Below are positions 45,250 to 60,562 of a stretch of DNA of 64,000 bases, piece after piece (the stretch's first letter is position 1; each line of letters begins with the position of its first letter). The position numbers and the translations under genes were made by a program. Where the stretch lies: contig NZ_SLYP02000002.1 of NCBI RefSeq assembly GCF_004341505.2, positions 124,001-188,000 on the forward strand. Direction: 5' to 3'. The notes under the pieces are model-generated. The model was not told the DNA's origin, did no database searches, and saw only the letters and a program-made list of their open reading frames with translations. Origin of the DNA: Sphingomonas sp. JUb134. Lineage in GTDB: Bacteria > Pseudomonadota > Alphaproteobacteria > Sphingomonadales > Sphingomonadaceae.

Positions 45250-48200
45250 TCATGATGAAGCGGGTTGAAGGATAGGATCGGTCTTGGGCCGGCGCAGCAG
45301 CAGATAGGCGGCGGGCAGCACCAACATGGAGAGCAAGGGCGCGGTCAGCATGCCGCCGATCATCGGTGCCGCGATCCGGCTCATGACCTCCGAGCCTGCA
45401 CCCGATCCCAGCAGGATCGGCAGCAGGCCGGCGAGGATCACCGCGACCGTCATGGCCTTGGGCCGGACGCGCAGCAGCGCGCCTTCGCGCACGGCGGCCT
45501 CGACTTCGGCGGCGTCCGGATTTGCGGTGTGCTCCGCCAGCGCGTTCTTGAGATAGATCAGCATCACCACGCCGAACTCGGCGGACACGCCGGCGAGCGC
45601 GATGAACCCGACCCCGGTGGCAACCGACTGGTTGAACCCCAGCAGATAGAGCGTCCAGATGCCGCCGGTCAGCGCGAACGGCAGCGTGCCCATGATCAGC
45701 GCAGCCTCGTCGAAGCGGCCGAAGATCAGGTAGAGCAGCACGAAGATGATCAGCAGCGTCGCGGGCACGACCAGCTTCAACCGGTCGACTGCGCGCTCGA
45801 GATATTCGAACTGGCCCGAATAGGCGATGCTGACGCCCGGCGAGAGCCTGACCTGTTTCGCCACCGCACGCTGCAGATCGCCGACCACCGAGGCGAGATC
45901 GCGCCCGCGCACATCGACATAGACCCAGGTCGAAGGCCGGGCATTCTCGGTCTTGAGCATCGGCGGGCCCTCGGCGATCGAGACGTTTGCCACGGTGCCC
46001 AGGGTGATCTGCTGGCCCGCCCGCGTCAGGATCGGTAGCGCCCGCAGCCCTTCGAGGCTGTCGCGCAATTCGCGCGGATAGCGCACGCTGATCGGATAGC
46101 GGGCGAGGCCCTCGACCGTCTCGCCGATCGTCTCGCCGCCGATCGCGCCCGAGACGATGGCCTGCACGTCGGCCATGTTGAGCCCGAACCGCGCGGCGGC
46201 GGCGCGGTCGATGTCGACATCGACATAGCGTCCGCCAGTCAGCCGCTCGGCGAGCGCCGAGCTGACGCCGGGCACGGTCCTAGCCACCGTCTCGACATCA
46301 TGGGCGATCCGGTCGAGCTCGGCGAGATCACTGCCCGACACCTTGACCCCGATCGGGCTCTTGATGCCCGTCGCGAGCATGTCGATGCGGTTGCGGATCG
46401 GCGGCACCCAGATATTGGCGAGGCCCGGGAGCTTCACCGTGCGGTCGAGCTCGTCGACCAGCTTCTCAGGCGTCATACCCGGCCGCCATTGGTCGCGCGG
46501 CTTGAACTGGATCGTTGTTTCGAACATTTCGAGTGGCGCGGGATCGGTCGCAGTCTCGGCGCGACCCGCCTTGCCGAACACGGTCTCGACCTCGGGCACG
46601 GTCTTGATCAGCCGGTCGGTCTGCTGAAGCAGCTCGCTCGCCTTAGCCGCCGAGAGGCCGGGCAATGCCGAGGGCATGTAGAGTAGGTCGCCCTCGTCGA
46701 GGTTGGGCATGAACTCGCCGCCGAGCCGCGACAGCGGCCAGGCCGTGGTCGCGAATACCAGCGTCGCGATCAGCAGCACCGCCTTGGGCCGCCGCATCGT
46801 CCAGTCGATCGCGGGCCGGTAGAGATCGGTCAGCCAGCGGTTGACTGGGTTGGCCTGCTCGGCCGGAATACGTCCCCGGATCAGCCAGCCCATCAGGATC
46901 GGCACCAATGTCACCGACAGGATCGCGGCGGCGCCCATCGCATAGGTCTTGGTGAAGGCGAGCGGCGCGAACAGCTGGCCTTCCTGGGCTTCCAGCGTGA
47001 ACACCGGGATGAAGGACAGCGTGATGATCAGCAGGCTGAAGAACAGCGCGGGCCCGACCTCGGCCGCCGCCTCGGTGACGACGATCCAGCGCGTCTCGCG
47101 GTCGAGATGGGTGTCCGGATGGTCCTGTTCCCAGCGCTCGATCTTCTTGTGGGCGTTCTCGATCATGACCACGGCCGCATCGACCATCGCGCCGATCGCG
47201 ATGGCGATGCCGCCCAGCGACATGATGTTGGCGTTGACGCCCTGGTAGCGCATCACGACGAAGGCGGCGAGCACGCCCAAGGGCAGCGTCAGGATCGCGA
47301 CCAGCGCCGAGCGGACATGCCAGAGGAACAGGCCGCAGACCAGGGCGACGACGATGAACTCCTCGACCAGCTTGTGGGTGAGGTTCTCGACCGCGCGATC
47401 GATCAGTTGCGAGCGATCATAGACCGTCACCACCTCGACGCCGGGCGGCAGGCTCTTCCTGAGATCGGCGAGCTTGTCCTTGACCGCCGCGATGGTCTCG
47501 CGGGCATTCTTGCCCGAACGCAGGATCACGACGCCGCCGGCGACCTCACCCTGGCCGTTCAGTTCGCCGATGCCGCGTCGCATTTCGGGACCGACCTGGA
47601 TCGTGGCGACGTCACCGAGACGGACCGGCACGCCACCGGCCGCCGTCTTCAGCGGGATCGCGCCGAAATTGTCGAGCGTCTTCAGATAGCCCGAGGCGCG
47701 AACCATATATTCGGCTTCGGCCAGCTCGAGCACCGAGCCGCCCGCTTCCTGATTGGCCTGCCGGATCGCCTCGACCGCCTGGGCGTGGGTCACCCCGTAG
47801 GCGGCGAGCTTCACCGGATCGAGCAGTATCTGATACTGCCTGACCATGCCGCCGATGCTGGCGACCTCGGCGACGCCGGTCACGGTCTTGAGTTCATAGC
47901 GCAGGAACCAGTCCTGCAGCCCGCGCAGCTGCGACAGGTCATGCCGGCCGGTGCGGTCGACCAGCGCATATTCATAGACCCAGCCAACCCCGGTCGCGTC
48001 GGGACCGAGCGCGCTGCGGGCGTTCGCCGGCAGGCGCCCCTGCACCTGGTTCAGATATTCGAGCACGCGGCTGCGCGCCCAATAGAGATCGGTGCCATCC
48101 TCGAAGATCACATAGACGAAGCTGTCGCCGAAGAAGCTGTAGCCCCGCACGGTCTTTGCCCCGGGCACCGACAACATGGTGGTGGTGAGCGGATAGGTGA

Positions 48201-48393
48201 CCTGGCTCTCGACGATCTGCGGCGCCTGGCCGGGATAGCTGGTGCGGATCACGACCTGCACGTCCGAGAGATCGGGGAGGGCATCGATCGGGGTCGAGCG
48301 CACCGCCCACAGGCCCGCGCCGATCAGCGCCAGCATCCCGATCAGAACGAAGAAGCGGTTCCTGACCGACCAGCGGATGAGATGGGCGATCAT
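45250..48393 (-). CDS. cusA: CusA-type heavy-metal RND efflux pump
   Basis: 1047 residues, full-length for the HME-RND family. The N-terminal helix begins [20 protein letters not shown]; the TM4 motif [19 protein letters not shown] is that of Cu/Ag pumps (E. coli CusA), which carry Met/Ala instead of the acidic residue of Co/Zn/Cd pumps. The inner-membrane trimer exports Cu(I)/Ag(I) from periplasm and cytoplasm through CusB and CusC. Overlaps cusB by 4 bp and is followed by cusF. Confidence 0.95.
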
Positions 48394-49880
48394 CGGCCCG
48401 CCACCTTCGCCATATGCCGCAGCGTCGGTCCCGCCGGGGGCCGGTCGAACCCGAACCGAACCCGGTCACCCGCCTTGAAGCCGCGCGCGATGCCCGGATC
48501 GGCGAGTGCGAAGGTCATCGTCATCGCTGGCCAGTCGAGCGCGGGGACCGGCTCGTGGCTGAGCGTCACCGAATTGGCCGTGATCCGCTCGATCTTGCCC
48601 GTCGTCTCGTACAGCGTGGCTTTCGACGCCGGCGCGGCGAGGGTCGCCGATGCCGCACCGCCGCCGATCGGCCGCGCCTCGATGCCCGACAGGCTCGCCT
48701 CGGAATCGATCAGGAACTGCCCCGAGGCGACGACGTTCTCGCCGGGCGACAGGCCGGCAAGGATCTCGGTCTCGCCGCCCGCCTCGCGGCCGATACGGAC
48801 CTCGGCGGGATGATAGCGCCCGTCGCCTGCGGCGAGCATGACGAGCGTGCGCTTGCCCGTGCGGATCACCGCCTCGCTCGGCACCAGCAGCGCCGGCTTG
48901 GCATCGCCGCCAAGCGCGACGGTGGCGAACATGCCCGGCCGCAACCGGCCGTCGCGGTTGGGCAGCGCGATCCGCACGGTGAGCGTGCGGCTGTCGGCCT
49001 GCGTGGTCGGCAGGATCGCGATCACCCGGCCGGCGAAGCGCTCGCCGGGGAAGCTCGCCAGCGTGGCGCTGGCATTCTGGCCGACGCGGACATCGCCCGC
49101 GCGCGCTTCGGGCACCGCGGCGTTGAGCCAGACGGTGCCGAGCCCGCTCACCTGGGCGAGCGTCTGGCCCATGGCGAGCGTCACGCCGGCACGGGCGTCG
49201 AGCGTCTGGATGGTGCCCGAGATCGGCGTCGTGATCGTCACCACGCCGTTCGGTCGACCGCTCCGCTCGACGCTGGCGATGAGGCCGTCGGACATGCCCA
49301 TCAGCCGCAGCCGCTGGCGCGCGGCCGCGGTGAGATCGGGCTTGCCGAGCCGCCTGACGCTCAGATATTCGGTCTGCGCGCCGCCCCATTCGGGCAGGAG
49401 CAGGTCCGCGATCGGCGCGCCGGCGCGGACCACGTCCCCGGGCGCTCGCGCATAGACGCGGCTCACGAACCCGCCCGAACGCGCCTGGATGACGGCGACG
49501 TCGCGCTGGTTGAAGTCGATCGTGCCGGTGACCTCGAGGGCCGAGGCAAGGCTGCCCATCTTCGCCGCGACGACCCGCAATCCCAGGCTCTGCCGCGCGG
49601 CGGGATCGACGGCGACCGTGGGGGCCGCGCCGGCGCTTCCTCCGTCCGCGTATCGCGGCACGAGCTGCATATCCATGAAGGGCGACTTGCCGGGCTTGTC
49701 GAACTTCTGGTTGGGGAACATCGGATCGTACCAGTAAAGGACTTTGCCTGCCCCGGCGGGCGTGGTCGCCTCCGATTGCGGTGCCTGGCGATGGCCTGCC
49801 CAATAGCCTGTGCCGCCGGCCAGCAGCGCGACAGCCAGGATCGATGCGCCCCAGCGCAGTGCGGATTTATCGAGCGTCAT
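48390..49880 (-). CDS. cusB: CusB-type adaptor with N-terminal metal site and C-terminal CusF-like domain
   Basis: 496 residues. An N-terminal membrane anchor is followed by a heavy-metal-binding segment ([20 protein letters not shown] with MDMQLVPRY, about residues 48-76), the barrel-sandwich and hairpin domains of periplasmic adaptors, and from about residue 420 a CusF-like domain ([20 protein letters not shown], then [11 protein letters not shown]). It connects CusA to CusC. Having a fused CusF domain beside a separate cusF gene means two metal relay sites. Overlaps cusC by 4 bp. Confidence 0.93.
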
Positions 49881-51139
49881 GGCCGCTCCTCCCCATAGGT
49901 GATGGTGATGCGGACCGCGTCGCGCGCGACGTCGGCTTCGCGGTTGAGCGCCTCGACCTCGGCCTCCGCGAGCCCGAGCGTCGTGAGCAGCGCGGCGCCA
50001 AGGTCGAGCTTGCCGGCGCCATAGCTGTCGCGGTCGAGCTCGGCGCGGTGCCTGGCGAGGGGCACCAGCGTCTCGCGGGCATTGCGCAACCGGGAGAGAT
50101 GCATGGCATGATCGGCAAGGTCGGCGTCGAGCTGCGCCACCAGTTCGCGGCGGATCGCCTCGCGGTCGAACCGCCCCCCTTGCACGAGGCTCTCGCTGGC
50201 AGCGATCCTGGGATTCTGGCGCTTGCCGGCGAACAGCGGCAGGTCGATCGACACGCCGACCGAGGCCATGTCGCCGTACATGGAATCGCGCCGGCCATAG
50301 GTGACGCCGACCTTCCAGTCGGGGCGCTTGTCGGCGCGCGCGAGGCGCACGTCCGCTTCGGCGACTGCGATCCGCGCGTCCTGCGCGCGCAGGGCGGGAA
50401 GCGCATCGATCCCGGCCCGCAGCCGGATCGGATCGACATCGAGCATCGGCGGGTCGCCCATCGCCTGCGGGTCGGGGTCGCCGGTATAGCGCGCGAGCCG
50501 GGCCCGCGCCTGCGCCACCACCGCAGCCATCTCGGCGCGGCGATCGGCGATGGCGGCGCGGAGCTGGTCGGGCTCGAGCGCCTGGCTCGGTCGGGCGCTG
50601 CCCGACGCCAGGCGCGCGGTCACGGTCTTCTGCAGGTCGTCGAGGCTGGCATCGAGCAGGTCGAGCTGCCGGAGCCGGCGTTCGCCATAATAGAGATCGA
50701 CCCAGGCGAGGGCGGTCTCGAGCCGCACGTTGCGGCCTTCGACCAGCTCGCCGGCCTCGGCGACACCGATATCGGCCGCGGCGCGCGCGGCGCGTGCATG
50801 GCGCTTGGCAAGATTGGGGAAGGCCTGGCTTAACCCGATCGTCGCCATGGTGAAATCGTCGCGCGTGAAGCTGCCGGCATTGGGGCCGCTCACCGGGAAG
50901 TTCTGCAGGCCCAGGTCGAGCGTGGGATCGGGCAGGCGATGGGCGGCGACCGCCGACGAGCGGGCGCCAGCTGTCGCCGCCGCGCGCGCCTTGAGGCTCG
51001 GCGCATTGGCGGCAGCGAGCCTCAGTGCCTGCTCGTAGGTGAGCGGGCCGGCCGACACCGGCACGGCCCAGGCGCTCGCAAGCGTCGCACCGAGAGAGAG
51101 CAACAGGCGTCGCACAGCGCGCCTCGGCATCATGATCAT
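49877..51139 (-). CDS. cusC: CusC-type outer-membrane efflux protein
   Basis: 420 residues, TolC family: signal peptide (RAVRRLLLSLGATLASAWAV), first repeat LTYEQALRLAAANAPSLKAR, second ITYGEERP end. It forms the outer-membrane exit duct. A GAGGGG lies about 9 bases before the ATG at 51139; the frame is open upstream but without similarity. It is the first pump gene of the operon and overlaps cusB by 4 bp. Confidence 0.88.
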   Translation of the reverse strand: MIMMPRRAVRRLLLSLGATLASAWAVPVSAGPLTYEQALRLAAANAPSLKARAAATAGARSSAVAAHRLPDPTLDLGLQNFPVSGPNAGSFTRDDFTMATIGLSQAFPNLAKRHARAARAAADIGVAEAGELVEGRNVRLETALAWVDLYYGERRLRQLDLLDASLDDLQKTVTARLASGSARPSQALEPDQLRAAIADRRAEMAAVVAQARARLARYTGDPDPQAMGDPPMLDVDPIRLRAGIDALPALRAQDARIAVAEADVRLARADKRPDWKVGVTYGRRDSMYGDMASVGVSIDLPLFAGKRQNPRIAASESLVQGGRFDREAIRRELVAQLDADLADHAMHLSRLRNARETLVPLARHRAELDRDSYGAGKLDLGAALLTTLGLAEAEVEALNREADVARDAVRITITYGEERP

Positions 51140-52085: not shown

Positions 52086-52141
52086 AGACGCTCTTCCCCT
52101 CGGCAGGTCCGGGCGGTGGCTTACCATCCAAGGAGGTGAAT

Positions 52142-52498
52142 ATGGTCAGAAAAACTCTCATGGTCGCGCTTGCCGGCGTTTCGATGCTTGCTGCCGTCCC
52201 CGCTATGGCCCAGGGCATCGGGCACAGCTTGTTCATGCGCGGCTCGATCGTCGACACGGGCAGCAACGGCACGGTCGTCTGCATCGGCAAGGCCGATGGC
52301 GCCGAGGTCGGCCAGAAGCTCGAGGTCTATCGCGTCGTGACCCATCCGGGTCCGTCCAAGGGCGTGGCGCCGACCTACCACCGCCAGCTCGTCGGCCATG
52401 TGACGATCGATCATATCTTCGATGATCACTTCGCGCACGTGTCCGTCGCCGACGGTACGCCTGCCAAGCACGACATCGTCGAGCTTCGCAAGAACTGA
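52142..52498 (+). CDS. Exported hypothetical protein of the copper region
   Basis: 118 residues. Signal peptide MVRKTLMVALAGVSMLAAVP, then a compact beta-rich domain (IVDTGSNGTVVCIGKADGAE, VGQKLEVYRV, HVTIDHIFDDHFAHVSVADG). It contains several His (GHSLF, HRQLVGHVTIDHIFDDHFAHV) that may bind metal. AAGGAG 6 bases before the ATG at 52142 fixes the start. A MerR-type operator lies about 60 bp upstream, implying metal induction. Conserved in sphingomonads by impression only. Confidence 0.65.
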   Translation: MVRKTLMVALAGVSMLAAVPAMAQGIGHSLFMRGSIVDTGSNGTVVCIGKADGAEVGQKLEVYRVVTHPGPSKGVAPTYHRQLVGHVTIDHIFDDHFAHVSVADGTPAKHDIVELRKN

Positions 52499-52596
52499 CG
52501 CGCCGGTGGCCCGGCGGCACACGCTGCCGTGATGCGAGGCGTCGGGGCAGCGGGTTGCCGGCGGCATGGGACCGTTCGGGCTCGAGGCGAAACCGC

Positions 52597-52628
52597 TTGA
52601 CCCTGGACCATGGTCCAACCGGCATGAT
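52597..52628 (+). promoter_or_regulatory. MerR-type operator/promoter of the merR gene
   Basis: -35 TTGACC, then the perfect palindrome TGGACCATGGTCCA (52604-52617), then CATGAT about 20 bp after the -35. An over-long spacer with a centred dyad is how MerR-family activators work. The regulator gene starts at 52641, so it probably controls itself and the genes downstream. Confidence 0.7.
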
Positions 52629-52640
52629 CGAGCGGATGAC

Positions 52641-53120
52641 ATGGGCAATTTCAAGATCGGCGAACTCGCCGCCGCCGCGGGCGTGGGCCGCGACACGATC
52701 CGCTATTATGAGCGGATGGGCTTGCTGCGCGAGCCCGCGCGCACGGCGGCGGGCTACCGGCTCTACGACGCGACCGACCTCGAGCGCGTCAATTTCATCC
52801 GCTCGGCGCAGGAGCTTGGCTTCACACTCGAGCAGGCCCGGAAGTTGCTGGCGCTCAGGGCGTCGGACACCGCGCATGCCCAGGCCGTGCTCGATATCAC
52901 GCTCGCCAAGATCGCGGATGCCGAAGCCCGGCTCGAGCGCCTGTCCGATATCCGCGACATGCTGCGGATGCTCGCCGATGAATGCCCGGGTGAAGTACCC
53001 GTCTCCGATTGCCCGATCCTCGCCTTCCTGACGGCGCGGCGGAAAGACCAGCAGCATAACAAGAAACTTCAGGCAGCGCAGGACGAACGATCATCACTAG
53101 CGAAAGGGGTTTTGTCATGA
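52641..53120 (+). CDS. MerR-family copper-type regulator (CueR-like)
   Basis: 159 residues. Winged helix FKIGELAAAAGVGRDTIRYY with ERMGLL, then the long dimerisation helix and a C-terminal metal loop ECPGEVPVSDCPIL with two Cys, as in Cu/Ag and related MerR regulators. The start MGNFKIGEL at 52641 is the family opening; the frame extends 25 codons upstream across the operator. It leads the plus-strand operon; the next gene overlaps by 4 bp (ATGA). Confidence 0.85.
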   Translation: MGNFKIGELAAAAGVGRDTIRYYERMGLLREPARTAAGYRLYDATDLERVNFIRSAQELGFTLEQARKLLALRASDTAHAQAVLDITLAKIADAEARLERLSDIRDMLRMLADECPGEVPVSDCPILAFLTARRKDQQHNKKLQAAQDERSSLAKGVLS

Positions 53121-53338
53121 CGAAAATGCGTTTGATCGCCGTCCTCACGCCGGCGCTGCTTCTGGGCGCCTGTGTGACCACGCGGCCGACCTCGGCGCAG
53201 GTCGAGAGTTGCCGGGCGATGGAGGGCAATATGGGTCTCCAGACGCCGCATGATCATGGCGAGATGAAGGGGCAGGGGCGCAACCCGATGAACCTCTCGC
53301 ACGACCGGTGCCTTCAGATCCTGCGCAACGCGCAATGA
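53117..53338 (+). CDS. Small lipoprotein, His/Cys-containing
   Basis: 73 residues: signal ending in LLLGAC (lipobox), then a short polar region with ESCRAMEGNMGLQTPHDHGE and MNLSHDRCLQI. Possible metal ligands (His, Cys, Met). It overlaps the merR stop (ATGA), so it is co-translated. Function unknown. Confidence 0.65.
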   Translation: MTKMRLIAVLTPALLLGACVTTRPTSAQVESCRAMEGNMGLQTPHDHGEMKGQGRNPMNLSHDRCLQILRNAQ

Positions 53339-53343
53339 TCGGG

Positions 53344-53369
53344 TCCGGGCGCCATCCCTGGCGCCCGGA
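53344..53369 (+). terminator. GC-rich stem-loop between two lipoprotein genes
   Basis: TCCGGGCGCC and GGCGCCCGGA are perfect 10-bp arms around ATCCCT, followed by CACAGTTTTC. The stem is strong but the T run is short, so it could be an attenuator or an mRNA-stabilising element rather than a full terminator. Confidence 0.55.
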
Positions 53370-53396
53370 CACAGTTTTCAAGCCAAGGAGCAAGCT

Positions 53397-53717
53397 ATGA
53401 TCAACCATGCGAAAAAAGCCCTTCCGCTTGTCGGCGGAAGCCTGTTGCTGGCGCTCGCGCTTTCGGGCTGCGACCGCCAGGCCGACCAGACGGTGCCGCC
53501 CGCGGCGAACAGCGTCGCCGCCACCCCGGTCCTGACCGACAGCGGCAACGCTGCAGACGCGGCGCCGATGGACGCGATGAGCAACCAGGCCGAGATGGAG
53601 CGGCATCACCGTCAGGCGATGGACCATGACGCGATGCGCGCCGGGGCCGGCAACCAGACCGTGCCGGCACCCGATCCCGCGCCGAGCAATTCGGCGATGC
53701 CGATGAAGGATATGTAA
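53397..53717 (+). CDS. Met/His-rich lipoprotein
   Basis: 106 residues: lipobox LALSGC after a signal peptide, then a low-complexity chain rich in Ala, Pro, Met and His (MDAMSNQAEMERHHRQAMDH, then AMPMKDM). AAGGAG precedes the ATG by 8 bases. The composition suggests a periplasmic copper chelator. It is 17 bp before the electron-transfer module. Confidence 0.65.
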   Translation: MINHAKKALPLVGGSLLLALALSGCDRQADQTVPPAANSVAATPVLTDSGNAADAAPMDAMSNQAEMERHHRQAMDHDAMRAGAGNQTVPAPDPAPSNSAMPMKDM

Positions 53718-53734
53718 GCGCGCTGAAAAAGGGG

Positions 53735-55651
53735 ATGAGGATGTCCAGGCGGATCAGCCTTCGACGCTTGAGCCTCGGCTGCGCAATCGCTCTCAGCCTG
53801 TCCGCGAGCGCGGGCGCGCAGGAGGGCGGGGATCATGCCGCGCATCATGGCGCAGGCATGCCGGCCGGCGGGGGCATGTCCGCACCGGCAGAGCCGGGGT
53901 CGTCGGACATGGCGAAGATGATGAACCCCATGATGGATCGCATGATCAATGGGGAAGGGGAGAATGAGCACGGCCACGAATCGCGCCGGACCGGCTTCAT
54001 CTCGCAGCTGCTCGCCTTTCCCGCGCTCGACGAAGCGGCAAGGCAGCGGGTCGCTGCGCAGGCTGGCGAACGGGTAAGCACGGGCCTGGCGATGATCAAC
54101 GCCGCCTCGGCCGACGGCGCGCGTGCAACCACGGTCTCAGCCCGGCTCGATGCGGCGCGGCGCCTGCGCGAGGGAACCGACCTGTTCCGCTCCGGCACCG
54201 CCGCGCAGGGCGCGATCGGCGGCTTGCAGCCGCCCCGGGAGGTCGGGCTTGCCTGGCTGCGCGATCAGCTCGACATCGACCAGGCCGCGCCCGGCCATGC
54301 CGGTCACTGGTTCGGCATCTCGCCCTCGCACCTGCTTCTCATGCTGTTCCTGGGGCTGGTGAGCGCCACGCTGATCGCGCTGCAGATCTTCCGCCTGCGG
54401 CGGATCGGAGCGATCGCCGGCGGTGTCGCCACCGCCAAGGTTCCAGCAAAACCGGAGCCGACGGCTGCCCCTCCCGCTACCAGGGTTGCGCCCGCGCCTG
54501 CACCCGTTGCCGACAGCGCTGGGCTCGCGCCGAGCAATGCGGCCGCACCCGGTGGGGCTTCGCTGCGCAAGCCCAAAAGCTGGGCGGGGCAGCTGCGCGT
54601 GGTCCAGATCGTGCGAGAGACGCCGAGCGTGCTGACCTTCCGGCTCGCGGACCCGGCCGCCGACCGGCTGCCGTTCGACTTCCTGCCGGGCCAGTTTCTG
54701 CAGGTTGAGGTAGAGCCCGAAGCGGGCAAGACCGCGCGCCGTTCCTACACGATCGCCTCTTCGCCGACCCAGCGGGCCTATGTCGAGCTGACGGTCAAGC
54801 GCGAGGAGCAGGGCGTGGTCTCGCGACATCTGCACGACAAGGTCGTCGCCGACGATCTGCTGAAGGTCAGCGGACCGTTCGGCGCCTTCACCTTCACGGG
54901 AACGGATGCGCAGAGCATCGTGCTGATCGCGGGCGGGGTCGGCATCACCCCGATGATGTCGGTGCTGCGCTATCTCACCGACACCGCGTGGAAGGGCGAT
55001 ATCTTCTTCTTCTACGGCGCACGGTCGACCGAGGAATTCGTGTTCCGCGACGAGCTCGAGCGGCTCGAACGCCGCTTTCCCAACCTCCATGTCGTCGCCG
55101 CGATGCAGCGCGCGCCCGGCACCGTCTGGATGGGCCCCGAAGGGCCGATCACCCGCGAGATGATCCTGGCTGCGGTGCCGGAGATCGCGAGCCGGCGGAT
55201 CCATATGTGCGGCCCGCCGGCGATGATGGGCGCGATGCGCGGCGTGCTGGCGGAGCTCGGCGTCCCCGAAGCGCAGCTGCACACCGAGGCGTTCGGTCCG
55301 GCCTCGCTGCCGGCCGACCACGAGGATCTCGAGGTCAAGCCCGCGCCCGCGCCAGCGGATAAGCCGGCCCCGAGCGCCGAGGTGGCGCCGAGCACGGTGA
55401 CCTTCTCCGTGTCGGGGGTGTCGGCGGCCTTGCCCGCGGACGAGACCGTGCTGGAGGCGGCCGAGGGCGCGGGCGTCGAGATCCCCTATGCCTGCCGTGC
55501 GGGCACATGCGGCGCCTGTGTCGTCAAGCTACTGCAGGGCGAGGTGACGATGGAGGTCGAGTCCGGCCTTGCGCCCGCCGACAAGGCGCAAGGCTATGTG
55601 CTCGCGTGCCAGGCGAAGGGAACGGGCACGCCACTCGTGGTCGAAGCCTGA
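53735..55651 (+). CDS. Membrane-anchored FAD/NAD(P)H reductase with C-terminal 2Fe-2S ferredoxin domain
   Basis: 638 residues. Signal or anchor, then a His/Met-rich extracytoplasmic part (GGDHAAHHGAGMPAGGGM, MAKMMNPMMDRM), a membrane helix (HLLLMLFLGLVSATLIAL, about 200-220), an Ala/Pro linker, a ferredoxin-reductase module (RRSYTIASSP for FAD, GGVGITPM and CGPPAMMGA for NAD(P)), and a plant-type 2Fe-2S domain with CRAGTCGACVVKLL and a fourth Cys in VLACQAKG. The reductase should face the cytoplasm and the metal-rich part the periplasm. It starts the electron-transfer operon; the stop shares bases with the next ATG (TGATG). Confidence 0.85.
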   Translation: MRMSRRISLRRLSLGCAIALSLSASAGAQEGGDHAAHHGAGMPAGGGMSAPAEPGSSDMAKMMNPMMDRMINGEGENEHGHESRRTGFISQLLAFPALDEAARQRVAAQAGERVSTGLAMINAASADGARATTVSARLDAARRLREGTDLFRSGTAAQGAIGGLQPPREVGLAWLRDQLDIDQAAPGHAGHWFGISPSHLLLMLFLGLVSATLIALQIFRLRRIGAIAGGVATAKVPAKPEPTAAPPATRVAPAPAPVADSAGLAPSNAAAPGGASLRKPKSWAGQLRVVQIVRETPSVLTFRLADPAADRLPFDFLPGQFLQVEVEPEAGKTARRSYTIASSPTQRAYVELTVKREEQGVVSRHLHDKVVADDLLKVSGPFGAFTFTGTDAQSIVLIAGGVGITPMMSVLRYLTDTAWKGDIFFFYGARSTEEFVFRDELERLERRFPNLHVVAAMQRAPGTVWMGPEGPITREMILAAVPEIASRRIHMCGPPAMMGAMRGVLAELGVPEAQLHTEAFGPASLPADHEDLEVKPAPAPADKPAPSAEVAPSTVTFSVSGVSAALPADETVLEAAEGAGVEIPYACRAGTCGACVVKLLQGEVTMEVESGLAPADKAQGYVLACQAKGTGTPLVVEA

Positions 55652-56379
55652 TGCGCGAACGCAGCGACATCGCCGTCGGCCTGCTGGTCGCGTTCCTGCT
55701 GCTGTTCCCGTTCGGCTACCTCGTGCATGTGTCACCGCGCTTTCCGGGCAGCCTCGCTGGCGGGATCATCGGGATCGCAGCGCTCGTGCTGATGCTGCTG
55801 ACGCTTCCCTATGTCGCGGCCAAGCACATCGCCTGGGTCGACAAGCTGCTCTCCCGGCTCGTCAGCAAGCCGACCCTGCTCGCCATCCACATCTATGCCG
55901 GCGTGCTGGCGCCGATCCTGGGTCTGGTCCACGCCGCGCACAAGCTCGAAAGCCCGGTCGGACTGCTTCTGACCGTCCTCCTGCTGATGACGGTCATCAC
56001 CGGCTTCATCGGCCGTTACCTGCTTGCCCAGCTTGGTCGGGCGCTGCGCGGACGCAGGTCGGAACTGGCCTCGCTTCGCGCCGCCTTCCTCGAGGAGCCG
56101 GCGGCGCCGACGCAGGCCGATACCGCAGCCGCGCCGCTGTCGGGCTGGAAGCGCTATCTGTTCGTCGCCGGGGATGCGCCCGCGGGCCAGCACCCCCAGG
56201 ACAAGGCGGGGATCGCCGCGGCGCTGGCCGATACCGAATTCGCGATCCGCGCCGAAGAGGCAACCAACACCCTGTTCGCGCGATGGCGGTTCCTGCACAT
56301 CCTGCTGGGCTGTCTCATCTTCGCGCTGCTCGCGCTCCACGTCGGCGCGGCGATCTATTACGGGCTGCGCTGGCTATGA
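55651..56379 (+). CDS. Polytopic membrane protein, probable b-type cytochrome (ferric-reductase-like)
   Basis: 242 residues with five or so hydrophobic helices. His pairs lie in helices: LLAIHIYAGVLAPILGLVHA and FLHILLGCLIFALLALHVGA, a spacing suitable for two b haems as in ferric-reductase-like membrane domains. Between them is a loop of about 90 residues (RGRRSELASLRAAFLEEPAA...). It probably carries electrons from the flavoprotein across the membrane to the cytochrome c. Overlaps both neighbours by 1-4 bp. Confidence 0.7.
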   Translation: MRERSDIAVGLLVAFLLLFPFGYLVHVSPRFPGSLAGGIIGIAALVLMLLTLPYVAAKHIAWVDKLLSRLVSKPTLLAIHIYAGVLAPILGLVHAAHKLESPVGLLLTVLLLMTVITGFIGRYLLAQLGRALRGRRSELASLRAAFLEEPAAPTQADTAAAPLSGWKRYLFVAGDAPAGQHPQDKAGIAAALADTEFAIRAEEATNTLFARWRFLHILLGCLIFALLALHVGAAIYYGLRWL

Positions 56380-57098
56380 GCTGGCAGCGTCTTTCCTACG
56401 CCGTCTTCATCGCAGCCCTGCTGGTGATGGTCGCCGCGGTCGCGATCCGGATGCGATCGGACGCGCCTAGGGATGCCGGCCTGGTGGCGCAGCTCGTCTC
56501 GCCCGGCCCGCTCTCGAGCGCGCACCAGTCCTTCGCCGGCCAATGCACGGCCTGTCACACGCCGGGCAAGGGCGTCGAAACCCGGACCTGTCTCACCTGC
56601 CATGCAGGCACGGATTTCGGGACGAAGCAGTCGACGCAGTTCCACGCGAAAGCGACGCAGTGCACCTCCTGCCACGTCGAACATGAGGGAGAGCGCGGCA
56701 TCATCCGCATGGATCACGCCGCGTTGCTCGACATGGCGAAGTGGCGGCAGCCGTTGGCGGGCATGTCGACAAACATTCGAAGCCTGACCCCCGAGACCGC
56801 GCTCAATTGCGCGAGCTGCCATGCGTTCCGCGATCCGCACCAGGGCCTGTTCGGCACCGACTGCGCGAGCTGCCACAAGACCGACAGCTGGAAGATCGCC
56901 AATTATCGCCATCCGTCGGTCAATTCGACGCAGTGCGCCGAGTGCCACAAGGCGCCGCCCAGTCACTTCATGGAGCATTTCAGCATGGTCTCGCAGCGCG
57001 CAGCCGGATCGAAGGCGCGCGTCGACCAATGCTATGCCTGTCACGCCACCGACAGCTTCAACAATATCCGCAAGCGAGGCTGGTATGATCACCATTGA
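56376..57098 (+). CDS. Membrane-anchored multihaem cytochrome c (seven CxxCH)
   Basis: 240 residues. N-terminal anchor (SYAVFIAALLVMVAAVAIRM), then seven CxxCH motifs: CTACH, CLTCH, CTSCH, CASCH, CASCH, CAECH and CYACH, with extra His residues that could be sixth ligands. It belongs to the NrfH/NapC/cytochrome c7-like set of periplasmic electron carriers by motif, though no closer family is recognisable. The ATG overlaps the membrane protein stop (ATGA). It would receive electrons from the membrane cytochrome and reduce an unidentified periplasmic acceptor. Confidence 0.8.
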   Translation: MSWQRLSYAVFIAALLVMVAAVAIRMRSDAPRDAGLVAQLVSPGPLSSAHQSFAGQCTACHTPGKGVETRTCLTCHAGTDFGTKQSTQFHAKATQCTSCHVEHEGERGIIRMDHAALLDMAKWRQPLAGMSTNIRSLTPETALNCASCHAFRDPHQGLFGTDCASCHKTDSWKIANYRHPSVNSTQCAECHKAPPSHFMEHFSMVSQRAAGSKARVDQCYACHATDSFNNIRKRGWYDHH

Positions 57099-57528
57099 GG
57101 CCGACTGGCTGAGCGCCTTCTTCCGGCTCGCGGTGATCGGCCTGGAACTGGCGGGTACGCTGACCATCCTGGTCGGCGCGGGGCTCGCAACCTTTCTGTT
57201 TGCGCGGCGGGCGAGGGCGGGCGACCGGACCGAGGCCTATAGCGCGTTCCGCTCGGCGCTCGGCCGCAGCATCCTGCTCGGCCTGGAATTCCTGGTCGCC
57301 GGCGACATCGTCAAGTCGCTGGTGATCAACCCGACGCTCGACGATCTCATCGTGCTGGCAGGGCTGGTGCTGGTGCGGACCTTCCTGAGCATCTCGCTCG
57401 GGGTCGAGATCAACGGCCACTGGCCTTGGGAGGAAACCCGGATGGCGCGGGAGAAGGCACGCGCGGCGTGGGATGGGTCGCCTGCGACGGCTGAGGCCGC
57501 CGGATGCGGTACAGCGCTCAAGGGATAG
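57085..57528 (+). CDS. DUF1622 membrane protein
   Basis: 147 residues: membrane helices (FFRLAVIGLELAGTLTILVG with AGLATFLF; SILLGLEFLVAGDIVKSLVI; DLIVLAGLVLVRTFLSISLG) and ending in a soluble tail, matching DUF1622. Function unknown. The ATG lies inside the cytochrome gene (14-bp overlap), so it is in the same operon. Confidence 0.85.
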   Translation: MITIEADWLSAFFRLAVIGLELAGTLTILVGAGLATFLFARRARAGDRTEAYSAFRSALGRSILLGLEFLVAGDIVKSLVINPTLDDLIVLAGLVLVRTFLSISLGVEINGHWPWEETRMAREKARAAWDGSPATAEAAGCGTALKG

Positions 57529-57542
57529 CAGATGGGAGGTGC

Positions 57543-57983
57543 ATGATGATCGAGAGACGCGAATTGCTGATGGCCGGCGCCGGCCTTGCCGCCGCTGGAA
57601 CGCTGGCTGTGCCGGCGGCGGGGCAGCAGCATCCAATGGAAGGGATGGCGATGTCGATGACGGACTGCATCGACGATTGCGTGGCTTCGCACCGCATGTG
57701 CCTGGAGACCGCCACCTGGCTGACCAAGCGAGGCGGCGCGTCAGCCACGGCGTCGCTGATCGCCATGCTGAACGACTGTGCGGAACTGTGCCAGGCGTCC
57801 GCCAACTCGATGCTGCGCGAATCCCCCCTCCATACCATCCTGTGTCGCGCCTGCGCTGACGCCTGCGAACGATGTGCGCGGGAATGCCTGAGCCACGTCG
57901 TGGACGAGCGGATGAAGCGTTGCTCGGCTACCTGCAAGGACTGCGCCGCCAGCTGTCGGATGATGGCGGACATGGCGAGCTGA
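57543..57983 (+). CDS. Exported four-helix-bundle copper-binding protein (Csp-like, DUF326)
   Basis: 146 residues. MMIERRELLMAGAGLAAAGT is a Tat-like signal. The mature protein is Cys-rich with spaced CxxxC pairs (TDCIDDCVASHRMC, CAELCQASANS, CRACADACERCARECLSHV, CSATCKDCAASCRMM), as in Csp copper-storage proteins that hold many Cu(I) ions inside a four-helix bundle. An exported version could store periplasmic copper. GGGAGG precedes the ATG at 57543 by 5 bases. Confidence 0.88.
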   Translation: MMIERRELLMAGAGLAAAGTLAVPAAGQQHPMEGMAMSMTDCIDDCVASHRMCLETATWLTKRGGASATASLIAMLNDCAELCQASANSMLRESPLHTILCRACADACERCARECLSHVVDERMKRCSATCKDCAASCRMMADMAS

Positions 57984-58129
57984 GTTTCCTCGGACACGCC
58001 CAGGCGTAGTGGGGTCAAGCAGATCCGGCACTATTGAAGCGATCCGTCGGCTCCACAATGTGGGGCCGCTGCGAAGCTGGGTCGTATGGGTGCGAAAGCG
58101 GGACTGGTTAAGGATCGGCGGTAGCGCAT

Positions 58130-58876
58130 CTAGACCAGCCAGGCAGCGATCGCGCCAACCACCGACTTGGTTTCGGCAACGTCGCGGACTCGCACGGTAT
58201 CCAGCCCGAGGTGCTTGGCCGGATAATCATTTCCGCCCGGGAAGATCGCGTCACCGAAGAAGATCATCTCGTCGAGTGCGACGCCGGTCTGCTCGGAAAG
58301 GCGCTTAAGGCCATAGGCCTTGTCTATGCCTTCGCGGGTGATGTCGATCGATGTCGCCCCGCCGATATTGATGGCAAAGCCTGGCAGCAACGGCTGGAGC
58401 AGGGCCTGCAATTTCTTGCGCTTGGCGTGATCCGGATCCCACGTGTCCTTGGCCTCGAGCGGCGCCTGCTGACCGAGCGCGGAGAATGTGATCTGGCTGC
58501 CGCGATCCTCGATCTGCTCGCCCCAGATGTTCTCGTTTGCATAGCCCGCCTGCTCGACCGCCTTGGTCAGTGCTTCGCGGATGCGCTGGCTTTCGTCGCC
58601 GGTGAACAGATCGGCATAGATACGCGTCCATTGGCCGTCGGCGTGACGATAGAGCTTGGTGCCCGTGGTCGGCTGGATGATGAAATTGTCGAGCCGCGCC
58701 CGGGCAGGCATGCGTGACACCACCTGTTTCTCGAATTGCGGCCAGTCGCCTCCGGAGATGATCGCTACCATCGTCACGTCGAGCAGGCGGGTAAGCAGAT
58801 CCGCCATTTCATCGTCGAGCGGCTGCTTGCTGAGCGCGAGCGTTCCGTCGAGGTCGAAAGCGGCCAGTCGCTTCAT
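58130..58876 (-). CDS. HAD-superfamily phosphatase
   Basis: 248 residues, HAD IIB type: FDLDGTLALSKQPLDDEMAD is motif I, ISGGDWPQF motif II, FFGDAIFPGGNDYPAKHLGL motif IV. Resembles phosphomannomutase-like or sucrose-phosphate-like HAD hydrolases; substrate not clear. The ATG at 58876 follows a GATGATC stretch; the frame opens 18 codons upstream. It follows a HAD pseudogene of different type. Confidence 0.8.
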   Translation of the reverse strand: MKRLAAFDLDGTLALSKQPLDDEMADLLTRLLDVTMVAIISGGDWPQFEKQVVSRMPARARLDNFIIQPTTGTKLYRHADGQWTRIYADLFTGDESQRIREALTKAVEQAGYANENIWGEQIEDRGSQITFSALGQQAPLEAKDTWDPDHAKRKKLQALLQPLLPGFAINIGGATSIDITREGIDKAYGLKRLSEQTGVALDEMIFFGDAIFPGGNDYPAKHLGLDTVRVRDVAETKSVVGAIAAWLV

Positions 58877-59210
58877 GATGATCTCCCACAAGCGGCAGCA
58901 GAAATGCGTCGATGGCATCGGCGATGCCATCTTTGTCGTTGCTGGTTGAAATGTAGTGCGCTGCGCTACGGATCTCCTCAGGCGTCTTGCCCATGGCGAT
59001 CGATAGCCCGGTGCGCACGAGCAAAGGGCAGGTCATTGGGCATGTGGCCGAGCGCCCGCGCCAGGGCATCGACGCCAGCTCGCTTGTTGGCATAGGAGTT
59101 GGTGATGTCCAGATAGTAGGTCCGCGACCGGGCAGTCGTCGCCGACGCCAGGCTCTTGTCCTTGCGAACCAAAGTCCGTCGATGTCGGAGATGACGAGGC
59201 CAAGCATCAT
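58870..59210 (-). pseudogene. Cof-type HAD phosphatase, shortened and frameshifted
   Basis: The ATG at 59210 overlaps the zwf stop by 4 bp (ATGA). The start MMLGLVISDIDG is motif I; one base is missing directly after it (near 59175), and the next frame continues LVRKDKSLA. Then an internal deletion joins to YYLDITNSYANKRAGVDALA, and a second frame change leads to GLSIAMGKTPEEIRSAAHYI and STSNDKDGIADAIDAFLLPL, the usual Cof C-terminus. About 160 residues of the core are missing, so it is non-functional. Confidence 0.8.
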
Positions 59211-60562
59211 TGGCCGATCCTGTGCCAGAAGCGGCCATCGCGTTCGAGTAGGGCATCTGCGCCGGCCGGGCCGGCGCTGCCTGGTGCATAGGATTCAAGC
59301 CTGCCCTTGCCCTTGGCCCAGCGATCGAGGATCGGCTGGACCGCGGCCCAGCCCGCCTCGATCTGCTCGGCGCGCTGGAACAATGTCTGGTCGCCGGTCA
59401 TCATGTCATAGAGCAAGGTTTCGTAGCCGGTCCGGCCCGACAGCTTGAAGTGGTCGGCATAAGTGAAATCGAGCGTTGTTCCTGCGGTCTTGATCACTGG
59501 ACCCGGTTTCTTGACCAGCATGTCTAAGACGATGCTTTCGTCCGGCTGCAGCTGGAAGATCAGGCGATTGGCTGGCAGGCGGTCGATCGGACAATCGCGG
59601 AATAAAGCGTAGGGCACTGCCTTGAACGTGACGACGATCTCCGTATCGCGCGCTGCCAGCGCCTTGCCGGTGCGCAGGTAGAAGGGCACGCCGGCCCAGC
59701 GCCAGGTGTCGACTTCCAGCTTCAGTGCGACATAGGTCTCGGTCCTGCTGTCGGCAGCGACATCCGGGACCTTACGATAGGCCGGCACGTTGCGGCTGCC
59801 GACACGGCCCTTGCCATATTGGCCGCGCACTGCGCAGACTGCGGTGGGCTTGCGGATCGCGCGCAACACCTTGGCCTTTTCGTCGCGGATCGCGTCGGCA
59901 TCGAAGCTGTTGGGCGGCTCCATCGCGATCATCGCCAGCAGCTGGAACAGATGGTTGGGGACCATGTCGCGGAGCGCGCCGGTTGCATCGTAGAAAGATC
60001 CGCGCGATCCGACCTCGACCGTCTCGGCGGCGGTGATCTGGACATGGTCGATATAGCGATTGTTCCACACCGCTTCGAACCATTGGTTGGCGAAGCGCGC
60101 GACCAGGATGTTCTGGACAGTTTCCTTTCCCAGGAAATGGTCGAGCCGGTAGATCTGGCTTTCCGGGAGCAAGGCGAGGATTCGGGCGTCAAGCGCCTTG
60201 GCCGAGGCGAGGTCGTGGCCGAACGGCTTTTCGATCGCGACGCGGCGGAACCGACTGCCCGCTTCCGCCATCAGGCCTTTGGCGGCAAGCTTTTCGACGA
60301 TGGCGCCGAAGAATTGCGCCGGCGTGGCAAGGTAGAAGACCGCGCTTCGGTCGCCCAACGCCTGGGCGACATCGTCGAACACCCGGTCTGCGGTGAAATC
60401 GCCCTGGAGGTAGGCGATGCGCTTGCGCAGATCACGCCAGCAATCGCCCTCGGTCGCGAACTTATCCAGGCTGGCGCGCAACGTCTCGTCATCGCCATCG
60501 CTGCGGCCGATGCCGAGGATGGTGAATTCCTTTCCCAGTAATCCGTCGGTGCACAGATGGCG
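59207..60562 (-). pseudogene. zwf: Glucose-6-phosphate dehydrogenase lacking its N-terminus
   Basis: Similarity begins at HLCTDGLLGKEFTILGIGRS (from 60559, directly after an in-frame TGA at 60563-60565) and continues to the normal end, including the active-site region RLDHFLGKETVQNI and EKPFGHDL. The first 30-40 residues with the GxxGDLA NADP-binding loop are missing, so catalysis should be lost even if the TTG at 60481 starts translation (424 residues against about 490). No N-terminal remnant is visible upstream. The gene ends in the Cof-type pseudogene; the pair probably moved together with the pentose-phosphate genes at the other end of the window. Confidence 0.8.

Follow-up and report, generated by a model that had tools for sequence, protein, structure and literature searches.

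What becomes of the electrons that a chain of three membrane-tied proteins would draw from NAD(P)H and carry to the periplasm, when the genes of this chain stand next to one for a copper storage protein? The question is raised by a 64,000-nucleotide stretch of Sphingomonas sp. JUb134 (NCBI RefSeq assembly GCF_004341505.2, contig NZ_SLYP02000002.1, positions 124,001 to 188,000; G000:C2:124001-188000 in our numbering), hereafter the window; its contig measures 411 kb and the whole genome 4.1 Mb. The gene cluster in question (52641-57983 of the window, all on the + strand; Table 1) encodes a MerR-family regulator, two lipoprotein-like proteins, a reductase (RED), a haem-b-type membrane protein (CYB), a seven-haem cytochrome (CYC), a DUF1622 protein and a Csp-like protein. 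RED and CYB overlap by 1 base, CYB and CYC by 4 and CYC and DUF1622 by 14, and a gap of 17 bases precedes the Csp-like gene. The original prediction, made from the letters of the window, had described four tightly coupled genes with a Csp-like gene next to them and a MerR regulator at their head; all of this is present, at the positions given. The two small lipoprotein-like genes had been overlooked. We propose, tentatively and at somewhat less than an even chance, that RED, CYB and CYC form an NAD(P)H-driven membrane electron exporter of copper-resistance islands, with Cu(II) as its acceptor.

RED exhibits FAD_binding_6 (Pfam E-value 7.7e-15), NAD_binding_1 (1.2e-18) and Fer2 (5.9e-18) domains, and its relatives of solved structure are flavohaemoprotein(s), phthalate dioxygenase reductase and NqrF. 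Given a signal-like start and one membrane span, its His/Met-rich part is predicted to lie outside and its reductase domain inside. An HxxHH motif is typical of the N-terminal part (79 of 93 frames; 11 of the 14 others are frames of at most 444 residues, whose N-terminal part was not examined). Kinship of the N-terminal domain with the Metal_resist proteins encoded nearby was not borne out (hhalign probability 0.9%).

Six histidines of CYB (26, 80, 94, 97, 216 and 230) are invariant in an alignment of 40 rows. In two-haem b reductases, each of two helices bears a pair of histidines spaced by about 13-14 residues. CYB has such pairs in His80/94 and His216/230, both with a spacing of 14, in the helices 73-98 and 185-241. 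The AlphaFold model (pLDDT 82) places the remaining helices at 2-25, 35-49, 52-59 and 102-146. Its Pfam scores all stay below the family cut-offs (Ni_hydr_CYTB, 19.2 bits against 30.1; Ferric_reduct, PF01794, 16.7 against 28), so that the label "b-type" rests on the invariant histidines. A PepSY or PepSY_TM profile match was not found in Pfam at E-value ≤ 1. Foldseek with the CYB model gave no confident relative, and on a second look no family stood clear, the scores lying within the helical background. Against solved chains, CYB and CYC gave weak rows only, with no credible sequence relative of CYB among them.

CYC has a model of low confidence (pLDDT 55.6), of which the N-terminal helix 3-28 is the sole confident part. 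Its seven CXXCH motifs recur in all ten plasmid relatives that were read first and, by automatic count, in 93 of 97 cytochromes collected; on closer look L128 and L129 also have seven, L027 and L127 six. Eight histidines outside these motifs (50, 90, 103, 114, 155, 179, 197 and 201) are invariant in 34 aligned rows, 33 of which come from loci selected by pattern. A second ligand would thus be available for each of the seven haems. The route from NAD(P)H through FAD, 2Fe-2S and haem b to a seven-haem cytochrome, as originally predicted, is therefore borne out as anatomy by the domains, the His pairs and the CXXCH motifs.

Between haems 6 and 7, CYC carries the signature SHxMxHFxM, a candidate metal site as far as sequence can tell. 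It is invariant in the CYC alignment, which is a biased set, and present in 96 of the 97 cytochromes, a count that is not independent because the patterns of the genome scan cover that region. Among 26 loci not chosen by the signature it is found in 24, against none of 12 other multihaem loci. These 26 loci are 18 plasmid records reached through the CYB protein, seven genomes reached through a profile that includes the signature region, and the window; they contain near-duplicates (L004 and the window, L013 and L124, L006 and L165, and four Alteromonadaceae). The exceptions are L008 (SHYSEHFSM) and L168, where the cytochrome frame is broken. In L168, a Roseomonas mucosa plasmid, the reductase is also annotated as two frames.

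How much of the cluster belongs to the system? Genomes were scanned with cytochrome patterns, and the best 80 of the 385 loci so obtained were taken; gene order and neighbours were scored in the 97 loci with profiles built in this analysis. RED, CYB and CYC follow each other in this order on one strand in 92 of them, which is not a matter of chance. The remaining five are L059, L078, L038 and L053, on contigs of 5.5-7.3 kb, and L071 (20.7 kb), where neither partner was scored. The window has the gene order, the seven CXXCH motifs and the SHxMxHFxM signature that define this seven-haem family. Within the same 97 loci, Metal_resist proteins are scored in 44, multicopper oxidase in 26, CopB in 24 and P1B-ATPase in 22, and DUF1622 in 28, Csp in 15 and the MerR family in 10. 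As these last three are present in a minority of loci, the unit to be explained is the RED-CYB-CYC chain, and Csp and DUF1622 are optional neighbours of it. The proposed link to copper storage in particular is accordingly not upheld by Csp (15/97) and DUF1622 (28/97), while the link to copper resistance at large is, by the genome-wide controls given below.

The module is scattered. The CYB protein matches 49 plasmid records, 26 of them at 95-99% identity in sphingomonad genera; at the DNA level, 26 plasmids keep at least 80% of the 5.5-kb block with 91-97% identity. In five of the 26 near-identical sphingomonad plasmids the regulator is missing from the match, the alignment running only from query base 1095 onward. 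An even sample of 398 Pseudomonadota genomes contains the seven-haem family in 7, and 385 genomes of the window's class contain it in 2 (E-value ≤ 1e-40), the window's own genome being counted in both. This low and patchy occurrence is as expected for an accessory, mobile system. Among the best 80 of the 385 scanned loci, the titles carry the labels Pseudomonadota, Planctomycetota, Verrucomicrobiota, Chloroflexota, Nitrospinota, Myxococcota, Binatota, Elusimicrobiota, Bacteroidota and Actinomycetota, single ones of which may be wrong since many loci are metagenome bins.

Tallies of neighbours were made on the 82 loci of at least 12 kb, leaving out 15 of the 97 that are shorter. As controls served 22 other 20-kb stretches, placed by hand in seven Pseudomonadota genomes (two on the window's contig), and the 12 other multihaem loci. 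The window's own Cus-like genes were the CusA, CusB and CusC seeds. Multicopper oxidase, CopB, P1B-ATPase or Csp is encoded in 53 of the 82 loci, against 0/22 and 0/12 in the two sets of controls. When CusA, CusB and DUF411 are added, the figures are 65/82 against 2/22 and 1/12; for Metal_resist proteins they are 39/82 against 0/22 and 0/12. Without Legionella, which is over-represented, 40 of 68 loci have one of the four copper genes and 52 of 68 one of the seven types.

Because the 22 control stretches are all from Pseudomonadota, each genome was also used as its own control. This check covers 20 copies of the module in 17 genomes (ten picked for long contigs, thus not at random, and seven that are all the family carriers of the 398-genome sample), with expectations calculated from gene number and genome size for a distance of 40 kb. 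A multicopper oxidase of the Cu-oxidase_3 type lies within that distance of 18 copies where 1.1 are expected, being missing in G159 and G187, and CopB lies near 9 copies (0.39 expected). In a planctomycete, G399, all three copies have the oxidase within 6 kb. A ChrA chromate transporter is near one copy (0.36 expected) and an SBF/ACR3 arsenite-type transporter near none (0.61 expected). The sole ChrA is in the window's own genome (G000:C2:187626, about 63626 of the window), 6.5 kb from the module. Not counted as copies were a G398 cytochrome fragment with stops and short or partial cytochrome matches (e.g. in G187). Extra cupredoxin-domain matches in frames already counted were removed by hand, and weak matches to the glutamate dehydrogenase family (8.9e-14 and weaker) were not used. 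The ChrA count omits the second halves of ChrA genes and a single short fragment, the CopB count one match below cut-off. On the tree of the cytochromes the copper label (65 loci with, 17 without) occurs in every larger branch; the link is therefore not an accident of one lineage. The copper context of the seven-haem module is thus well supported, and since its relatives across several phyla lie mostly near copper-resistance genes, the module probably handles copper.

The family has sisters outside this context. Matches beyond the seven-haem family occur in 26 of the 398 Pseudomonadota genomes, against 7 for the family itself. In the 12 of these loci that were read, a relative of CYB always adjoins the cytochrome, and four of them (L149, L150, L152 and L154) also encode a relative of RED, in a frame whose 403-434 residues leave no room for the His/Met domain. 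One of these, L150, belongs to the window's own genus. The sister cytochromes carry 8 to 12 CXXCH motifs in L148-L154, 24 in L144-L147, and 10 in L155, in a frame of 596 residues. The L148-L154 module resembles that of the window in its b protein and multihaem cytochrome, but differs by the number of CXXCH motifs, the lack of SHxMxHFxM and the short RED. None of the 12 loci has a multicopper oxidase, CopB, P1B-ATPase, Csp, Metal_resist or DUF1622 gene; L148 has a CusB/CusC-like pair. The device of a reductase, a b protein and a multihaem cytochrome is thus wider than copper, and its copper-linked branch adds the His/Met domain and the SHxMxHFxM signature to it. It had been said that the copper link would fall if homologues without copper genes were the commoner. 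In a limited sense they are: genomes with matches outside the family are more numerous (26 against 7), and the 12 loci read lack the four main copper genes. On the tree, however, the seven-haem family is separated as a clade from the seven sister rows included (SH-aLRT 100; several sister branches are long). The sister loci therefore confine the copper link to the seven-haem branch without overturning it.

The regulator at the head of the cluster was compared with solved chains. It matches 4ua1, a "Regulatory protein" (E-value 2.5e-31), CueR (6ldi, 2e-21) and a mercuric regulator (5crl, 6.3e-19). At the position which we take to be Ser77 of CueR, it has Ala where the aligned CueR shows Ser and both 5crl and 4ua1 show Cys; the lack of Cys at this place is presumably the mark of the CueR type. 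Its loop CPGEVPVSDCPI resembles the CPG..DCPI of CueR and is one residue longer. Both NCBIfam scores are below cut-off (CueR, 108.2 bits against 147.4; MerR, 115.6 against 150.85). Upstream lies a candidate MerR-type promoter with a perfect dyad. The reading of this dyad as a MerR operator is weak, since it is broken in L004, a relative with 97% identity.

How might such a chain serve copper resistance? NAD(P)H would reduce the cytosolic FAD/2Fe-2S domain of the membrane-tied RED, with the His/Met-rich stretch on the periplasmic side. RED would hand the electrons to CYB, whose two His pairs may hold two stacked b haems spanning the membrane, and CYB would in turn reduce the periplasmic CYC, a putative bis-His wire of seven haems. 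From there the electrons would pass to periplasmic Cu(II), perhaps at SHxMxHFxM or by way of the His/Met stretch of RED. The resulting Cu(I) could be taken up by the Csp protein, Cus-type efflux, copper ATPase and chaperone-like lipoproteins encoded nearby, presumably to the benefit of the cell under copper stress. Cus pumps and Csp proteins bind Cu(I). We favour Cu(II) as acceptor because of such Cu(I)-protein neighbours and the His/Met-rich additions specific to this branch, and also because the regulator has Ala in place of the mercuric Cys and genes for chromate and arsenite are not clearly enriched. More doubtful, yet a serious possibility, is a fuller version of this reading, in which the module is a hitherto undescribed type of periplasmic Cu(II) reductase driven by NAD(P)H, present in several phyla on plasmids as well as chromosomes and built on a two-haem b membrane protein and a seven-haem cytochrome. 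SHxMxHFxM would be its copper site, Cu(I) would be made deliberately for storage and efflux proteins that accept Cu(I) only, and pentose-phosphate and other dehydrogenase genes would pay for the reductant in some islands.

Several observations weigh against Cu(II) reduction. None of the seven types of copper genes is found in 17 of the 82 loci. Ten of these still have a Metal_resist gene (L011, L035, L049, L066, L068, L074, L075, L079, L083 and L087); seven lack that too (L015, L036, L047, L057, L063, L076 and L126). On the tree, loci with the copper label fall into clusters (13 changes, where shuffling gives a mean of 21.3); of the 16 rows in one planctomycete branch, 8 are without the label and 4 have it. 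Whole sub-branches may therefore have another use. Copper genes are scarce or absent around the sister module, so that something other than copper was probably the ancestral acceptor. The histidines of SHxMxHFxM may be plain haem ligands, and reduction of Cu(II) does not need seven haems. In all 13 Legionella loci of the genome scan (within L028-L065), RED is preceded on its own strand by genes for an F-type ATP synthase, named from the annotation of L009; three of these loci have a single small opposite frame in the gap. On plasmids of Alteromonas and Glaciecola (L011, L170 and L172), the module is followed by one hypothetical gene and then by a set of [NiFe] hydrogenase genes. Genes that may supply reductant (zwf, gnd, tal, adhP, ALDH, GAPDH, GDH, glgP or hydrogenase) occur in 41 of the 82 loci against 2/22 and 1/12 in the controls, which speaks in favour of the reading; genome-wide, however, zwf is near 4 of the 20 copies (0.37 expected) and GDH near 4 (0.47 expected), so that a pentose-phosphate supply for the module holds for a minority. 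Finally, PcoA-type multicopper oxidases are thought to oxidise Cu(I), which is the opposite reaction. Since this best-linked gene would re-oxidise Cu(I), feeding of an oxidase and a role in repair have to be weighed as well.

CYC might, for instance, feed electrons from NAD(P)H to a multicopper or respiratory oxidase, removing O2 or keeping electrons flowing under copper poisoning, with copper as the setting and not the substrate. Seven haems capable of bis-His ligation would suit a wire to a protein partner, and the recurrence of NAD(P)H-producing genes near the module agrees with it, as does the presence of the oxidase near 18 of the 20 copies. We nevertheless consider this unlikely: within the stretches read, the oxidase is scored in no more than 26 of the 97 loci, the nearest one in the window's genome is 14 kb off, and several loci have Csp, P1B-ATPase or Cus genes with no oxidase. 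The electrons could instead maintain the reduced state of thiols or methionines in periplasmic copper proteins such as Csp and Met-rich chaperones, much as MsrPQ or DsbD do. Outside the cytosol, an exported Csp would have many cysteines to be kept reduced, 14 in the present case, and the passage from flavin through haem b to the periplasm resembles MsrPQ. Such a function in repair or redox poise is very unlikely in our judgement, given the small share of loci with Csp, and the fact that no Msr or thioredoxin-fold gene appears among 20 annotated neighbour clusters (a non-exhaustive set), a DsbE gene in the Ccm set of L007 apart.

The module may also ride in multi-metal islands and reduce another metal or oxyanion, or act as a general electron sink. 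The sister loci, all 12 of which are without the four main copper genes, the hydrogenase neighbours of Alteromonadaceae, the ChrA gene close to the module in the window's genome and the 17 loci with none of the seven types of copper genes all speak for this, and we regard it as rather unlikely on account of the genome-wide check, where multicopper oxidase and CopB are enriched and the chromate (1/20) and SBF/arsenite (0/20) transporters are not clearly so. Export of electrons to Cu(II) thus stays our preferred reading of the seven-haem branch.

No known system that we compared has the same make-up. The eukaryotic ferric and cupric reductases Fre, STEAP and Dcytb differ in that the module uses three separate proteins, an added 2Fe-2S domain and a seven-haem cytochrome; the fold of CYB scores no higher against them than the helical background, and none is a credible solved sequence relative. 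In MsrPQ with the flavin reductase Fre, a cytosolic flavin reductase feeds a haem-b membrane protein and then a periplasmic protein. The output there is a molybdoenzyme, whereas that of the module is a multihaem cytochrome. CymA, MtrCAB and NrfH likewise place a multihaem c-type wire outside the inner membrane, and the module proteins have weak matches to MtrC/MtrF-like, DmsE-family and NrfH models in Pfam and NCBIfam. Those systems are fed by quinol, whereas in the module, which has a copper context, the electrons would come from NAD(P)H by way of flavin and haem b. CrpH, a PepSY_TM protein, was proposed in 2026 as a periplasmic copper reductase for respiration, and the excerpted text reports that its invariant histidines match those holding two haems in FoxB (PMC13038864). 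CYB differs from both by its lack of a PepSY match, and CrpH is tied to copper starvation and oxidase function, the module to copper-resistance genes. The cupric reductase CcoG is described in part of a 2020 review as having two tetranuclear Fe-S clusters and acting with cbb3 oxidase assembly (PMC7558416); no 4Fe-4S domain was found by Pfam in the module proteins scanned. The table of bacterial cupric reductase activities in that part of the review lists CcoG, NDH-2 and two uncharacterised activities (PMC7558416), and a paper on Gallionellaceae, in its excerpted text, concerns other multihaem cytochromes (PMC10734462). The original prediction knew of no named system with this make-up, and in agreement with it we found no open-access paper on the gene set, judging by titles and the beginnings of abstracts, which is no proof that it is unpublished. 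Nor did the open-access literature yield a paper pairing DUF1622 with copper.

The other genes of the cluster and its surroundings are collected in Table 1. The Csp-like protein matches the Csp1 model TIGR04401 with an E-value of 6.9e-7 (29.6 bits, below the NCBIfam cut-off of 100), and its residues 37-142 match the solved RkCSP3 (6zif, 9e-14), in keeping with a Cys-rich four-helix bundle. Its N-terminus has a signal-like start with RR, as judged by eye, so that it may be exported by the Tat route, and its relative in L004 is annotated as a four-helix bundle copper-binding protein. The DUF1622 product scores 76.7 bits against a PF07784 gathering score of 24; two further DUF1622 matches occur elsewhere in the genome (L001 and L003, chromosome C1). 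For the 73-aa lipoprotein-like protein there is no Pfam match and no useful NCBIfam match, and for the 106-aa one nothing above cut-off in either.

Table 1. Features of the module and its surroundings, in positions of the window
Feature	Position	Strand	Basis
RED, membrane-anchored NAD(P)H/FAD/2Fe-2S reductase, 638 aa	53735..55651	+	Pfam, NCBIfam
His/Met-rich stretch of RED, residues 30-90, predicted exported	53822..54004	+	5 His and 8 Met in 61 residues
Membrane span of RED (one in all), near residues 195-217	54317..54385	+	Hydrophobic stretch read from translation
FAD- and NAD-binding domains of RED, residues 288-502	54596..55240	+	PF00970, PF00175
2Fe-2S domain of RED, residues 560-628	55412..55618	+	PF00111; CRAGTCGAC
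CYB, haem-b-type membrane protein, 242 aa, about five spans (by eye)	55651..56379	+	40-row alignment, AlphaFold model
CYC, seven-haem c-type cytochrome with N-terminal anchor, 240 aa	56376..57098	+	Seven CXXCH; Cytochrom_c3_2 E-value 1.6e-7
SHxMxHFxM signature of CYC (His197, Met199, His201, Met204)	56964..56987	+	Candidate metal site
MerR-family regulator	52641..53120	+	Pfam MerR_1 E-value 5.1e-20
Candidate MerR-type promoter: TTGACC 52597-52602, CATGAT 52623-52628, 20-base spacer	52597..52628	+	Sequence
14-base perfect dyad in candidate promoter	52604-52617	+	Inverted-repeat search
73-aa lipoprotein-like protein (LLLGAC), His/Met-containing tail	53117..53338	+	ORF; similarly placed gene in L004
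106-aa lipoprotein-like protein (LALSGC), His/Met-rich tail	53397..53717	+	ORF; similarly placed gene in L004
DUF1622 membrane protein, 147 aa	57085..57528	+	PF07784 E-value 1.4e-21
Csp1-like four-helix copper storage protein, predicted exported, 145 aa, 14 Cys	57546..57983	+	TIGR04401 below cut-off; 6zif
Cus-like RND efflux genes (pump, adaptor, outer-membrane factor), divergent neighbours	45250..51100	-	ORFs, named by sequence; 5' end of last gene approximate
zwf, glucose-6-phosphate dehydrogenase, 5'-truncated, possible NADPH source	59207..60481	-	G6PD_N profile positions 20-183

The window and L004 have a 97%-identical block in common, from 52129 to 60558, where its end looks like a recombination edge. 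Compared with L004, about 28 codons are gone from the 5' end of the window's zwf, the similarity beginning at residue 29 of the L004 gene. The genome has three genes for glucose-6-phosphate dehydrogenase (G000:C2:122625, C2:184110 and C1:2319303), two of them on the 411-kb contig. A locus of Bradyrhizobium BTAi1 carries zwf, gnd and tal, and glutamate dehydrogenase is near the module in 19 of the 97 loci (L047, L068, L075, L079, other planctomycetes and several Legionella). On the plasmids that bear hydrogenase genes, hydrogen could feed the cytochrome; a related Salinimonas plasmid has a P-type ATPase, a cupredoxin and DUF2933 in place of the hydrogenase area. On the Methylophaga plasmid L007 (13751-18753), ccm genes follow about 3 kb after the module.

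The module is a conserved and often plasmid-borne unit of copper islands that would link NAD(P)H with the periplasm, and it might account for the spare zwf, gnd and further dehydrogenase genes found on some of these islands. The source of Cu(I) in aerobic periplasms is unsettled, and the RED-CYB-CYC chain may be regarded as a concrete candidate for it, with named residues.

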